This document shows, one piece after another, positions 1,365 through 5,831 of a stretch of 32,860 nucleotides of DNA (positions within the stretch are counted from its first letter, which is position 1; every line of letters begins with the position of its first letter). The DNA comes from a virus, in IMG/VR virus record IMGVR_UViG_3300011258_000207, positions 1-32,860 of that record. One strand, given 5' to 3'. Below the pieces are notes generated by a model. It was not told the origin of the DNA. It ran no database searches and saw only the letters and a program-made list of their open reading frames with translations. A program made the position numbers and the translations under genes.

Positions 1365-1469
1365 ATGTTAGTTAATCCTATTGAGATACCAGTAACAACT
1401 AAAAGAAATAAATTAATACCACTATTGACTTTAAACTATTTTAAAAAGAAAGGTAAAAAAGATGATTAG
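1365..1469 (+). CDS. Possible 34-aa basic peptide
   Basis: An ORF starting MLVNPIEIPVTTKRNK and ending in a KKKGKKDD tail fills the space between the coiled-coil gene and the nuclease gene, overlapping the latter's start by eight bases. Its own ribosome site is poor (TAGAGTTAAT). The same frame is open further upstream, back to 1284, but that part lies inside the preceding gene. It may be a real coupled micro-ORF or simply the leader that carries the nuclease ribosome site. Confidence 0.3.
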   Translation: MLVNPIEIPVTTKRNKLIPLLTLNYFKKKGKKDD

Positions 1470-2226
1470 AAAATTTACTATTAATGGTACAGAAGTTGAG
1501 ATTAGTTTTAATGCCAAAACCCATAGATATACTATTACTATAAATGGAGTTAAAAACCATTCACCTAGTGTTTCTACTATACTCAAATTGGGAGACACGT
1601 TTGGTATAGCAAGTGCAGCTGGACGCAAAAACTATCAAGACACTTTACATGAGGTATTATGTGTAGGTGAAGGAACTGAGTTCAGAGACAAAGACGAACT
1701 ATTAGAAAAACTTATTTTGATAAAAAAAGAAGCTGCTAATAAGTGGTTGCAATCCGCTAACTTAGGTACGTTGTGTCATGAATTTTGGGAAAATATACCT
1801 AAAGGCATTATACAATATGATGAGGATAAAAAAATTCAACGATTACAATATGCTCTTTATAACTACCATTTAAAAAATGTAACTAAAACTAATTACACAG
1901 AACGATTAGTTTATAATGACAATTTAGGTACACCTTATGCAGGGATGTTTGACGCAGACCTTGAGATAAGAGGTGAAAGAGTATTAATGGATTTAAAAAC
2001 ATATACTAAAAAATCTAATACTTCTACATGGCCAATTCAATTAAGTGCATACAACCATGCTCATACTTTAGAATTAGGAATAGAGCCTTTGCCTAGAGTT
2101 ATTATAGCAATAGATAAAGACACAGAAGAGGTCAAAGAGTTTTGGTACAGAGATAGCCAAGAGAAACATTTGGAGGTATTTAAAAGTTACCTTCACATTA
2201 GTCAGTTCTTAAAGGAAAAGAATTGA
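1462..2226 (+). CDS. RecB-like PD-(D/E)XK exonuclease
   Basis: The 254-aa protein carries the ordered motifs of the Cas4/RecB-type PD-(D/E)XK superfamily: GTLCHEFWE with H106, E148 in TERLV, D164 in AGMFDAD, the catalytic DLK (D177-K179) and the helix motif QLSAY (Q193, Y197). These bind the divalent metal and cut DNA, and phage members act as 5'-3' exonucleases in recombination or host DNA breakdown. Its position before an OB-fold-like protein and the primase-helicase fits replication and recombination. The first 95 residues are a beta-rich extension (MIRKFTINGTEVEISFN). Start chosen from AAAGGTAAAAAAG before the ATG. The family is clear; single- versus double-strand preference cannot be read. 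Confidence 0.85.
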   Translation: MIRKFTINGTEVEISFNAKTHRYTITINGVKNHSPSVSTILKLGDTFGIASAAGRKNYQDTLHEVLCVGEGTEFRDKDELLEKLILIKKEAANKWLQSANLGTLCHEFWENIPKGIIQYDEDKKIQRLQYALYNYHLKNVTKTNYTERLVYNDNLGTPYAGMFDADLEIRGERVLMDLKTYTKKSNTSTWPIQLSAYNHAHTLELGIEPLPRVIIAIDKDTEEVKEFWYRDSQEKHLEVFKSYLHISQFLKEKN

Positions 2227-2231
2227 TGCTA

Positions 2232-2292
2232 GAGCTTAATATTAACATGGGATTGTTTTTGGTGAGTTAAGCTCCACCTGTTTGCAATCCCA
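2232..2292 (+). ncRNA. Putative H-type pseudoknot in the leader of the OB-fold gene
   Basis: In the 87-base gap before 2314, two perfect 8-bp complementary pairs interleave: GAGCTTAA (2232-2239) with TTAAGCTC (2267-2274), and TGGGATTG (2248-2255) with CAATCCCA (2285-2292). The order A-B-A'-B' with connecting segments of 8, 11 and 10 bases is a classical H-type pseudoknot. The second stem can alternatively enclose a local hairpin, GGTGAG pairing with CTC-C-ACC (2261-2278), which competes for A', so two exclusive folds are possible. The ribosome site ATAGGAGATAAAC follows 12 bases later. The segment is visibly richer in GC than its surroundings. Regulation is inferred from structure and position. 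Confidence 0.55.
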
Positions 2293-2313
2293 CCCATTTT
2301 ATAGGAGATAAAC

Positions 2314-2775
2314 ATGGAATTACATATAACAGAAGTTAAACCACCAAGAGAAGGAAAGAAAGCATATATTGTAAAAGCAAGTAATGGAGTAGATTATTTT
2401 TGTAGTAAGGGTGGCGGTGCATTAAGACCTGACACAACGATAACTGCTGAAGTAACTGTACAAGAATATAGCGGTAAAACTTATAACTGGATAAAATCTT
2501 ACACACCTAGTAATGATGTGGAAAAGATCAAACAAGTTTTTCCTGACAGTAAAGTAGTAAGTAACAGCAATGGTTATAGCCAGTTACAAACTACAGCTAA
2601 AGACTTACAAAGTTTACTGCCTAATAATCAATATATGATTGTGCTACAAACTATTTTAAAGACAGGCACTAAACCAGAAGATTGGGATATAGCTCTTAGA
2701 TGGTATTTTGATAATTTAAAAGCTGGTGTATTAGAAACAGATAAAAGATTAAATGGTGGTCAGGAAGTTTTTTAA
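2314..2775 (+). CDS. OB-fold-like protein, candidate ssDNA-binding protein
   Basis: The 153-aa product starts after AGGAGATAAAC. Its first 75 residues look like a five-strand OB barrel: KKAYIVKASNGVDYFCSKGG, then TTITAEVTVQEYSGKTYNWI. This kind of barrel binds single-stranded DNA or RNA. The C-terminus ends in QEVF, a terminal phenylalanine reminiscent of SSB tails, although acidity there is modest. A middle region (KTGTKPEDWDIALRWYFDNL) is helical. Neighbours are a RecB-like nuclease, an HNH protein and the primase-helicase, which suits a replicative SSB or recombination mediator. The leader can fold into a pseudoknot, recalling T4 gp32 autogenous control. The SSB role is inference, as no exact family is recognised. 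Confidence 0.55.
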   Translation: MELHITEVKPPREGKKAYIVKASNGVDYFCSKGGGALRPDTTITAEVTVQEYSGKTYNWIKSYTPSNDVEKIKQVFPDSKVVSNSNGYSQLQTTAKDLQSLLPNNQYMIVLQTILKTGTKPEDWDIALRWYFDNLKAGVLETDKRLNGGQEVF

Positions 2776-3182
2776 TGGCCAAAAGATACACTAATAAAAA
2801 GCACGTTGAATGGGTGAGCAATTTAGACTGTTGTATAGCAGATCATTTTAATAGGTTAAGACAAAATGGCACTATGCCTAAAGACAGACCTAGATGTAGT
2901 GATTATAACATTCAAGCTCACCATCTTTTAAAACCTATCTTTAGCTCAAGAGGAATGAGTTTAAGAGCAGGTGATAAAGATGTTATTCCATTGTGCTACA
3001 GCTGCCATAGTAGTTTACATAACATGGGAAATGAATTTAAATTTTTTGAAAAAATGGTTTGTAATACTAGATTTGGTATGGCTACCGCAGAAAGATTATG
3101 GAATGAATCACCCCACAATAAAGGAGATAAAAATGAAACTAACACAAAATCAATTAATACTAGAACACTTAAAAGAACATAA
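2775..3182 (+). CDS. HNH-like nuclease protein
   Basis: A TAATG-coupled gene of 135 aa. Residues about 49-82 form an HNH/beta-beta-alpha-metal pattern: HH (49-50) followed by LRAGDKDVIPLC and CYSCHSSLH, with C74, C77, H78 and H82 positioned as zinc or catalytic ligands. The ending ATAERLWNESPHNKGDK resembles DUF968 or P1 Ref-like HNH proteins of phage recombination modules. The likely activity is metal-dependent nicking or cleavage of DNA, perhaps Holliday or branched substrates. It overlaps the following HTH gene by 50 bases. Confidence 0.7.
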   Translation: MAKRYTNKKHVEWVSNLDCCIADHFNRLRQNGTMPKDRPRCSDYNIQAHHLLKPIFSSRGMSLRAGDKDVIPLCYSCHSSLHNMGNEFKFFEKMVCNTRFGMATAERLWNESPHNKGDKNETNTKSINTRTLKRT

Positions 3183-3385: not shown

Positions 3386-3538
3386 ATGAGTATTACAAAA
3401 TCTTATGACCATAGTTATTATTATTTACAACAAGCTAAAAAATTAGCTAATTGTAATGATAAAGAATGGGATAATTTATCTAAAGTAATTAGAGATAATT
3501 ATGAAAAATTAGTTAGAGATAAAGAAAATGTTAAATAA
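3386..3538 (+). CDS. Hypothetical 50-aa protein
   Basis: A small ORF between the HTH gene and the Mom-like gene, starting ATGAGTATTACA after AAGGGAGTAATTAAT, a usable ribosome site. The product MSITKSYDHSYYYLQQAKKL is followed by a helical lysine and aspartate-rich region. Its end overlaps the next start by 11 bases, as expected for a coupled gene. No family recognised. Confidence 0.6.
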   Translation: MSITKSYDHSYYYLQQAKKLANCNDKEWDNLSKVIRDNYEKLVRDKENVK

Positions 3539-4157
3539 TTATAAAGTTTTACAAATAAAACCAGATGAAACACATTTATGGTTAACTCAAAAACATTACG
3601 CAAAAAGAGTACCTAATATTATGTATGCTTTTGGACTATACAAATTAAACAATTTAGTTGGTGTTATTACTTATGGTAAACCAGCTAGTAATTCATTATG
3701 TATAGGAGTATGTGGTAAAGATAATGCTAAATATGTGATTGAATTAAATAGATTATGTTTATTAAATAATAACAGGAATGAAGCATCATATTTTATTGGA
3801 AAAAGTTTAAAATTATTATTAAAACCTAAAATTGTTGTCTCTTATGCTGATACAAGTATGAATCATAATGGATATATTTATCAAGCAACTAATTTTATAT
3901 ATACAGGTTTATCTGCTAAAAGAACTGATGTAGATACTGGTAATAAGCACTCAAGGCATTATAAAAAATTTGATATTACTAAAAGAAAAATTAGGTCAAG
4001 AAAGCATAGATATATATTTTTTGTTGCTGATAAAAAAACTAAAAAATTATTTAATTCACAATTAAATTATAAAATTTTATCTTATCCTAAAAATATAACT
4101 AAAAAATATGATTCTGGAGAAAGGGTTAATTCACAACTAATTATGAGTTTAACATGA
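3528..4157 (+). CDS. mom: Mom-like DNA adenine modification protein
   Basis: The 209-aa protein matches the recognisable core of the Mom family, GNAT-like enzymes first known from phage Mu that convert adenine in DNA to N6-carbamoylmethyl-adenine. Visible blocks, in order: HYAKRVPNIMYAFGLY, LVGVITYGKPASNSLCIGVC, VIELNRLCLL, IVVSYADTSMNHNGYIYQAT (the most conserved block), NFIYTGLSAKRTD, and GNKHSRHY. Modification protects virion DNA from restriction. It sits directly upstream of the primase-helicase with an ATGA overlap, so it would be made with the replication proteins, whereas Mu makes Mom late. No Com-like translational activator is recognised. Confidence in family is high; the exact modified base is inferred. 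Confidence 0.85.
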   Translation: MLNNYKVLQIKPDETHLWLTQKHYAKRVPNIMYAFGLYKLNNLVGVITYGKPASNSLCIGVCGKDNAKYVIELNRLCLLNNNRNEASYFIGKSLKLLLKPKIVVSYADTSMNHNGYIYQATNFIYTGLSAKRTDVDTGNKHSRHYKKFDITKRKIRSRKHRYIFFVADKKTKKLFNSQLNYKILSYPKNITKKYDSGERVNSQLIMSLT

Positions 4158-4423
4158 TAACTAGAGAATGGTTATTAAGTAGACCACATAGCGGTAAGTA
4201 TAAATGTCCTGTGTGCAGCCATACTAGAAAGAATAAGCACGATAGATGTTTAAGTGTAACGATTAAAACAGAAGGTGTGGTGTGTTATTGCCATCACTGT
4301 AATTACTCAAAAGGAGAATATTATGATAAGTGGGAATGTAATAAACTGGGCGGAGAAAAGAGGAATAAACAAGGAAGCTCTGCAACAGTTAAAAGTAAGA
4401 AGTGGTCTGGCCCAGTATGGTGA
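4154..4423 (+). CDS. Stand-alone primase zinc-binding domain
   Basis: The first 60 residues are the zinc domain of a T7 gp4-type primase: CPVC (C18, C21), about 24 residues, then CYCHHC (C44, C46, C49). In T7 this domain reads the template recognition site and hands the primer on. Here the frame leaves the usual primase path after NYSKGE and ends about 35 residues later in an unrelated basic tail (KSKKW). The continuation expected of a fused primase (a NWAEKRGI segment) is in another frame, in the next gene. ATGA overlap with the Mom-like gene sets the start. It is probably a separate small polypeptide acting with the helicase. Confidence 0.75.
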   Translation: MITREWLLSRPHSGKYKCPVCSHTRKNKHDRCLSVTIKTEGVVCYCHHCNYSKGEYYDKWECNKLGGEKRNKQGSSATVKSKKWSGPVW

Positions 4424-5831
4424 TAGAAAATTAGAATCTATTATTTTTGATTACTACAACACAGATAATGAAGTAGTTAATTATAAAGCAAGAGCCATAC
4501 AAGAAAAAACATTTAAGCAGCTATTAAATGGCGAATCTGCGTTTTATAATCTAAATAATGTGTTAGCTAATAAGAATTTAGAAAACACTACCATATACAT
4601 CTGTGAAGGAGAGATGGATGTTGCTGCTATGTTAATGGGTGGATATGATCTAAACCAATTATTATCTGTACCGACAGGAGCAACTGCTAAAGCAAGTGAT
4701 GACCCATCAGAGTTAAAAAAATACAGATATGTTTTAGATGGATTAGAAAAGGGATTAGATAAGGTTAAGTGTTTTGTGTTACTAACAGACAATGATGAGC
4801 CTGGTCTAGCTCTACGACAAGATTTAGTGGCTTTATTAGGTTCTGGCAGGTGTAAGTATTATAATTACCCAGATAATATTAAAGATGCTAATGATGCTTT
4901 ATTAGAATGGGGTAAAGAATTTAAATATATGATTGAGGAAGATATTACTCCTTTTCCCATTGAAGGTGTATATAATATAGAAGAGATACCAGACCCTCCA
5001 AAGGTAAAATTATATAATATTAATATGCAAGGATGGGAAGATAAGTTTTATTTAGGAGCAGGGATGTTAAGTTTATTTCTTGGATATCCAGGTGGTGGTA
5101 AGACTAGCTTTGCTATACAAATGTGGACTAATATTGCCAAGCATTACAAATGTAATATAGGAATGTTTAGCGGTGAGACTAGAATTAAACCATATGTAGT
5201 AAGAGCAATAAGACAATTTTATCATAATAAATTAGAGATAGAACAAACAGATGCAGAAAAGCAAGAAGCAGATAATTTTATTAGAGATAGATTTGTATTC
5301 TTAAACCATCCCAACAATACACCATCATTTGAATGGACTGTAGATAGAATAAAAGATATGAAAGCACGATATAATATTAGTGCATTTATACTAGACCCTT
5401 GGAACAAATTAGAAGCACCAGATTTTGGCAAAGGTAGTGAAACACAATGGATAGGAAGATGCTTAGATTATTTAACTTCATTAGTAAAAGTTTTAGATAT
5501 ACATATAATGATTTTAGTGCATCCTGCCAAACCAGATAGCAAGGCACAACACGCACCGCCTACTCCATATAGTGCAGCTGGTTCAGCACATTGGAATAAT
5601 AAAGCAGATCATATATTTAGTGTTTGGAGACCTAAATTTGAAAATGATGATGGTAGTAGATGTACAGAATCTGTTTTTTCTATATCCAAAACTAGGTATG
5701 AGGAACTAGGTTACCCTAGAGTATTAGATATGATGCTTAATTTAGACACAGGTTGTTTTGAATCATATGTTAAAGATAAACCTGTTAAGAAAAGAAAAGT
5801 TGTTAAACATTGGAATGATTTAGATGACTAG
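4323..5831 (+). CDS. Toprim primase-SF4 helicase (Twinkle/gp4B-like)
   Basis: I choose ATG 4323 (502 aa) because AAAGGAGAATATT precedes it; the frame is open upstream to 4275 without a site. Toprim motifs are ICEGEMD (E95) and LLTDNDEPG (D156, D158), which form the metal site for primer synthesis. The C-terminal half is a RecA-type hexameric helicase: Walker A GYPGGGKTS (K260), Walker B-like FILDPWNKLE, the H3-like ILVHPAK and the SAAGSAHWNNKAD segment. It unwinds the fork 5'-3' and primes the lagging strand. It lacks its own zinc domain, which lies in the overlapping upstream ORF, like T7 gp4B versus 4A. It is the main replisome enzyme visible. Confidence 0.93.
   Translation: MISGNVINWAEKRGINKEALQQLKVRSGLAQYGDRKLESIIFDYYNTDNEVVNYKARAIQEKTFKQLLNGESAFYNLNNVLANKNLENTTIYICEGEMDVAAMLMGGYDLNQLLSVPTGATAKASDDPSELKKYRYVLDGLEKGLDKVKCFVLLTDNDEPGLALRQDLVALLGSGRCKYYNYPDNIKDANDALLEWGKEFKYMIEEDITPFPIEGVYNIEEIPDPPKVKLYNINMQGWEDKFYLGAGMLSLFLGYPGGGKTSFAIQMWTNIAKHYKCNIGMFSGETRIKPYVVRAIRQFYHNKLEIEQTDAEKQEADNFIRDRFVFLNHPNNTPSFEWTVDRIKDMKARYNISAFILDPWNKLEAPDFGKGSETQWIGRCLDYLTSLVKVLDIHIMILVHPAKPDSKAQHAPPTPYSAAGSAHWNNKADHIFSVWRPKFENDDGSRCTESVFSISKTRYEELGYPRVLDMMLNLDTGCFESYVKDKPVKKRKVVKHWNDLDD

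Follow-up and report, generated by a model that had tools for sequence, protein, structure and literature searches.

In the literature covered, autogenous control of a single-strand binding protein (SSB) by a leader pseudoknot is documented for the phages T4 and RB69, whose gp32 proteins repress their own mRNA via leader pseudoknots of diverged sequence (PMC535899). In the gp32 operator, protein binding begins at the pseudoknot, which nucleates it, and goes on to cover the ribosome site; how an SSB that is blind to sequence recognizes its own mRNA was named as unclear (PMC535899). A passage of the same paper presents the M13 gene 5 protein as a phage SSB acting as a specific repressor of gene 2 mRNA (PMC535899), i.e., of another gene's mRNA, unlike the autogenous case proposed here. 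Pseudoknots are also known from the STAXI motif, where they occur in tandem near SSB, topoisomerase, and integrase genes (PMC2864571).

The leader analyzed here lies between an exonuclease gene and a gene for a probable SSB-like protein. With gene 32 of T4 and RB69 it shares two stems interleaved in the order A-B-A'-B' in the leader of a (here putative) SSB gene, 5' of an A/U-rich ribosome site, and a fold that stays while the sequences of relatives diverge (PMC535899). It differs from the T4 leader in size (about 61-85 nt, including a third helix, C, versus a knot of about 28 nt), in the distance from knot to AUG (16-22 nt without UUAAA repeats versus more than 40 nt with such repeats), in being joined to the stop codon of the exonuclease gene, and in having an anti-Shine-Dalgarno loop. 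Whereas STAXI pseudoknots are repeated two or three times, the leader is single, has a fixed position, and has no Rfam match.

The SSB-like gene and its leader

The stretch of DNA analyzed (the window) comprises 32,860 bases of an IMG/VR virus record, from an uncultured, probably marine phage. Its terminase is nearest to those of pelagiphages (~47% identity) and its portal protein to Mx8-type portals. The exonuclease gene and the 153-aa gene starting at 2314 are separated by a gap of 87 nt (2227-2313). No promoter- or terminator-like site was matched in the region 1400-2500, for which the promoter scan covered sigma-70-type promoters, and this fits a polycistronic message under translational control. 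The gap is locally GC-richer, as a previous inspection of the letters alone (the sequence-only reading) had noted, its GC content being 38% (39% within the knot) compared to 32% in the window.

For the 153-aa product, no match that would name it was found in Pfam, PHROGs, NCBIfam, or PDB sequences, and hhalign comparisons with T4 gp32 and T7 gp2.5 gave no match (probability 0.2% for T4 gp32, to which the product is not detectably homologous). Two AlphaFold models, based on alignments of 15 and 17 relatives, predicted a beta-barrel whose top PDB matches were largely OB folds (RPA14/32, CST, IF1; best E 1.7e-3, pTM about 0.4, pLDDT about 70); no PDB structure matched either model below E 0.001. 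Most relatives, like the window, have an acidic C-terminal tip ending in Phe (QEVF, SSDSF, DDGTF, DEGDSF, DEGDF, EDSF), others end in Tyr (EGNSY, DGSSY), and there is one exception (DDGVL). These tips resemble the C-terminus DEDGDF of T7 gp2.5. Besides the exonuclease gene, the neighbors encode an HNH or PD-(D/E)XK nuclease and a primase-helicase. Because of the OB-fold models, the acidic Phe tips, and the replication and nuclease neighbors, the orphan product is probably SSB-like, and its gene family can be flagged as a probable SSB family. For the candidate SSB proposed at 2314 in the sequence-only reading, an OB fold is thus predicted by models of modest confidence, but no known SSB family matches it in sequence.

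Stems A and B were present exactly as described in that reading, interleaved over 61 nt, and each is extended by one U-G pair (Table 1). The complete order is A, an A/U-rich loop ending in an invariant A, B, C, an apical loop with A', C', B', and CC; across alleles, 16-22 nt containing the Shine-Dalgarno sequence then follow up to the AUG. Two mutually exclusive folds had also been proposed, the second being a hairpin within stem B that uses A'. This did not hold for most of that hairpin: its GGUG...CACC part (2261-2264/2275-2278) is the conserved helix C, which surrounds A', leaves its A-pairing bases unused, and is compatible with the pseudoknot. Competition with A:A' is confined to the inner extension of three pairs (2265-2267/2271-2273). 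Thermodynamic folding that disregards knots gave the B+C hairpin in 8 of 8 group-1 alleles. One group of relatives (L045 group) has an additional hairpin between B and A' that is able to reach into A' (CAAC/GUUG), possibly a competing fold. The invariant unpaired bases, the A of AUGG and the CC after B', may contact a protein, take part in tertiary contacts, or belong to a reinitiation codon. A coding function of the upstream AUG as a uORF was rejected, since neither frame nor length is kept.

Table 1. Positions of genes and RNA elements around the exonuclease/SSB-like gene junction in the window.
Feature	Position	Strand	Remarks
Exonuclease gene (phrog_298)	1462-2226	+	5' of the knot; stop codon adjoins strand A
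Stem A, 5' strand, GAGCUUAA	2232-2239	+	ninth pair U2240-G2266; 6-13 nt past exonuclease stop codon
Loop 1, A/U-rich	2240-2247	+	last base is the invariant unpaired A of AUGG
Short frame MGLFLVS* with its upstream AUG	2247-2270	+	AUG in all aligned leaders; frame varies
Stem B, 5' strand, UGGGAUUG	2248-2255	+	with ninth pair U2256-G2284: UGGGAUUGU, 2248-2256
Helix C, 5' strand, GGUG	2261-2264	+	surrounds A'; compatible with pseudoknot
Stem A, 3' strand (A'), UUAAGCUC	2267-2274	+	with C2275 forms CUCC, complementary to Shine-Dalgarno GGAG
Helix C, 3' strand, CACC	2275-2278	+	
Stem B, 3' strand (B'), CAAUCCCA	2285-2292	+	with ninth pair: GCAAUCCCA, 2284-2292; followed by invariant unpaired CC (2293-2294)
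Shine-Dalgarno of downstream gene, AGGAG	2303-2307	+	
SSB-like gene (probable), 153 aa	2314-2775	+	predicted N-terminal OB fold; C-terminus ...GGQEVF

Conservation of the pseudoknot in relatives

A lone 8-bp stem could arise by chance, but when the 87-nt gap was shuffled 3000 times with its dinucleotides preserved, not one shuffle contained two interleaved perfect stems of at least 8 bp, and among 2262 sliding 87-nt segments on both strands of the record this locus was the only one to contain them. In eight near-identical contigs whose leader is intact, the knot did not vary, which made them uninformative, so that diverged relatives were required. To gather these, the exonuclease and successively larger alignments of the SSB-like protein were used as queries. 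The A-B-A'-B' arrangement, detected alignment-free, was located directly 5' of the homologous gene in all 34 intact IMG/VR leaders (33 contigs, about ten diverged alleles, 18 leaders distinct over the last 60 nt). The family knot was the top-scoring arrangement in 29 of these leaders; in the remaining five it was outscored by a chance A/U-rich helix, with the family stems also present. A downstream gene kept without stems or without compensatory changes, which the sequence-only reading had named as evidence against the structure, was not encountered among these leaders.

The extent of divergence is illustrated by four relatives (designated by L numbers). L014 pairs AAGGAGUU with AACUCCUU in stem A and UGGGGUAG with CUACCCCA in stem B, and the corresponding strands are AAGAAGCU-AGCUUCUU and UGGCAUUGU-ACAAUGCCA in L040, GGAGUCAA-UUGACUCC and UGGGAUUG-CAAUCCCA in L043, and UGGAGCAAC-GUUGCUCCA and UGGAGGG-CCCUCCA in the L045 group. 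In stem-only alignments, compensatory changes with both sides altered were found for 14 of the 21 pairs of A, B, and C. Paired cells amounted to 93.9%, compared to 72.6% after shuffling and 41-52% with the partner strand slid by 1-3, the absolute percentage being somewhat favored because the stem rows were cut by hand at the anchors UGG/CCA and CUYC. The number of compensatory cells was 55 versus 18.7 expected from shuffles, and the covariation score was reached by 0 of 500 shuffles.

Free of the hand-cutting bias is an allele found with R1, a covariance model containing stem B only. It was matched at E~1e-13 and lies in the second of two modules on a 62.9-kb contig, and its stem A (GGAGUCAG/UUGACUCC) and helix C (UGCG/CGCA) pair although both are absent from the model. 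R1 also matched the insert-bearing L045 group (E about 1e-3). Covariation, shuffles, and this out-of-sample allele refute chance complementarity, which can practically be dismissed, and the suspicion of the sequence-only reading that two interleaved pairs are no accident was borne out. We regard the pseudoknot structure as almost certainly real.

Scans of viral and genome contigs with the stem B pattern revealed, among the matches listed, no copy with the family layout outside the gene family; the matches there were unrelated, although a few contained, by chance, an A-like helix of about the same length, and those in genome contigs look like chance. The SSB-like protein had no match in genome contigs, and searches of phage isolates yielded weak or spurious matches but no relative. 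R1 did not match the leader of T4 gene 32, its one weak match in the T4 stretch being located elsewhere. Weak R1 matches at 3048-3135 and 4249-4325 of the window and in HTVC010P were at chance level.

Possible control of the SSB-like gene

The four best-kept pairs of stem A are GGAG/CUCC (GAAG/CUUC in L040), and the others vary freely. By this core A' remains complementary to the Shine-Dalgarno sequence of the SSB-like gene, and it carries CUYC in every allele. The A':Shine-Dalgarno pairing amounts to -5.2 to -10.1 kcal/mol, which is equaled by 0-2% of random 9-mers. A' pairing with A in one state and with the Shine-Dalgarno sequence in the other is a better-supported exclusive alternative than the hairpin mentioned above. 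A function of strand A as decoy ribosome site was weakened by the alleles of the window and of L040, in which A is no longer Shine-Dalgarno-like (16S pairing -1.9 and -1.0 kcal/mol) while the A':Shine-Dalgarno pairing is kept.

The leader is probably a switch-like element controlling translation of the SSB-like gene. The most likely reading, to which we give about even chances, is an autogenous translational operator, analogous rather than homologous to that of T4 gene 32; such an independent example, also suggested in the sequence-only reading, would fit the gene context. The intercistronic RNA forms a three-helix pseudoknot, in which the apical A' of the B+C stem-loop pairs with the upstream A, and this knot, ending 16-22 nt 5' of the start codon of the SSB-like gene, would control initiation there. 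After saturation of ssDNA, free SSB would bind the pseudoknot and the flanking A/U-rich single strands, the ribosome site would be covered or closed, and SSB synthesis would halt. A plausible closing step is a strand exchange in which A:A' is lost and the CUYC of A' pairs with the Shine-Dalgarno sequence. Counting against this reading are the missing sequence match to a known SSB, the modest confidence of the OB-fold models, the loose co-variation of leader and protein (see below), and a single-stranded stretch before the AUG that is shorter than that of T4 and free of UUAAA repeats. If this reading is true, a non-homologous RNA and an unrelated SSB-like protein in a phage lineage unrelated to T4 would mean that such control arose more than once. 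The ten natural alleles represent ready compensatory mutants for testing how an SSB recognizes its own mRNA.

The chief rival of the autogenous operator is a coupling to termination of exonuclease translation that works independently of a binding protein. In every allele, strand A lies no more than about 11 nt before and 13 nt past the end of the exonuclease stop codon; in L043 and L283 it falls within the last exonuclease codons. A ribosome terminating at the stop would cover it. A' would thereby be freed and alter access to the SSB Shine-Dalgarno sequence, or the ribosome would reinitiate, and the leader would set the exonuclease:SSB ratio. Besides the position of A and the strength of the A':Shine-Dalgarno pairing, the AUG kept at the start of B agrees with such a coupling, as does the upstream frame of L040 and L042, which ends in TAATG on the SSB start. 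However, A:A' (-9.4 to -14.7) is stronger than A':Shine-Dalgarno in every case, the upstream frame has just 2-7 codons in half of the alleles, and a tight gene junction would place A next to the stop codon anyway. We consider coupling possible but rather doubtful. Somewhat more tentative still is the idea that A' is common to two exclusive pseudoknots, one formed with a Shine-Dalgarno mimic further 5', at the stop of the exonuclease gene, and the other with the actual Shine-Dalgarno sequence of the SSB-like gene. If true, such a leader would sense the translation of the exonuclease as well as free SSB and adjust the ratio of the two.

A ligand-sensing switch, the other function suggested in the sequence-only reading, found little support. 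An H-type pseudoknot that lies near a ribosome site and has a loop complementary to the Shine-Dalgarno sequence is reminiscent of small-molecule riboswitches of the SAM-II or preQ1 type, but the leader precedes only one DNA-metabolism gene, its stem sequences are free to vary, and few unpaired bases are invariant (the A of AUGG and the CC after B'). Moreover, searches of Rfam gave no match at the gathering cut-off and noise alone at E up to 10. A riboswitch is thus very unlikely. The leader of ribosomal protein S15 mediates autogenous control via a pseudoknot at the ribosome site. Its Rfam model overlapped weakly, at chance level (12.7 bits versus a cut-off of 39.5), and membership was rejected because of this score and the different gene. 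A full-text literature search found no description of the leader element, which is apparently undescribed.

A constitutive structure without a regulator, on which mRNA stability or the basal rate of initiation would depend, would equally give a stable intercistronic fold and no sign of a ligand. We consider it improbable, since the GAG/CUC part of stem A is invariant while other pairs vary, which suggests more than stability.

Exchange of the leader and neighboring genes

The leaders of L046 and L065 are 100% identical over 104 nt, whereas their exonucleases share 38% and the N-terminal parts of their SSB-like proteins 58% identity. Leader and protein thus do not co-vary tightly, and the identical leader points to strong constraint or a recombination boundary. 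The window and L042 have exonucleases of 98% identity but differ in leader allele and SSB-like protein (30-34%); this switch at the 3' end of the exonuclease gene indicates that leader and SSB-like gene moved together. A strict co-inheritance of the two was rejected as weak (rank correlation of the leader 0.37 with the SSB N-part and 0.12 with the exonuclease).

Such swapping of exonuclease and SSB modules around the leader, in both pairs of relatives, would also be expected of a DNA-level element, i.e., folded ssDNA or a recombination boundary. Yet on the coding strand G-U cells outnumber A-C cells by 9 to 2, a tolerance of G-U pairs that favors an RNA of the plus strand, and the element lies always on the coding strand at a near-fixed distance from the start codon. 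We regard a DNA element as highly improbable.

The 62.9-kb contig IMGVR_UViG_3300030116_002682 (L267, L283) contains two differing exonuclease-leader-SSB modules and represents either two genomes that were joined or a chimeric assembly. The next gene 3' of the SSB-like gene (2775-3182 in the window; 3495-3884 in both L065 and L069) encodes an HNH nuclease (DUF968-like) or a PD-(D/E)XK endonuclease, swapped among relatives. Directly 5' of the zinc-ribbon/primase genes, a slot for DNA modification differs by relative: it holds a Mom-like gene in the window (3528-4157), an N6/N4 methylase gene in L042 (4114-5250), a C5 methylase gene in L048 (3432-4226), both kinds of methylase gene in L070 (4091-6164), and none in several other relatives. 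In the window and in relatives with this region, the zinc-ribbon ORF (window 4154-4423) overlaps the Toprim-helicase ORF (4275-5831) out of frame, possibly reflecting a split primase or a programmed frameshift.
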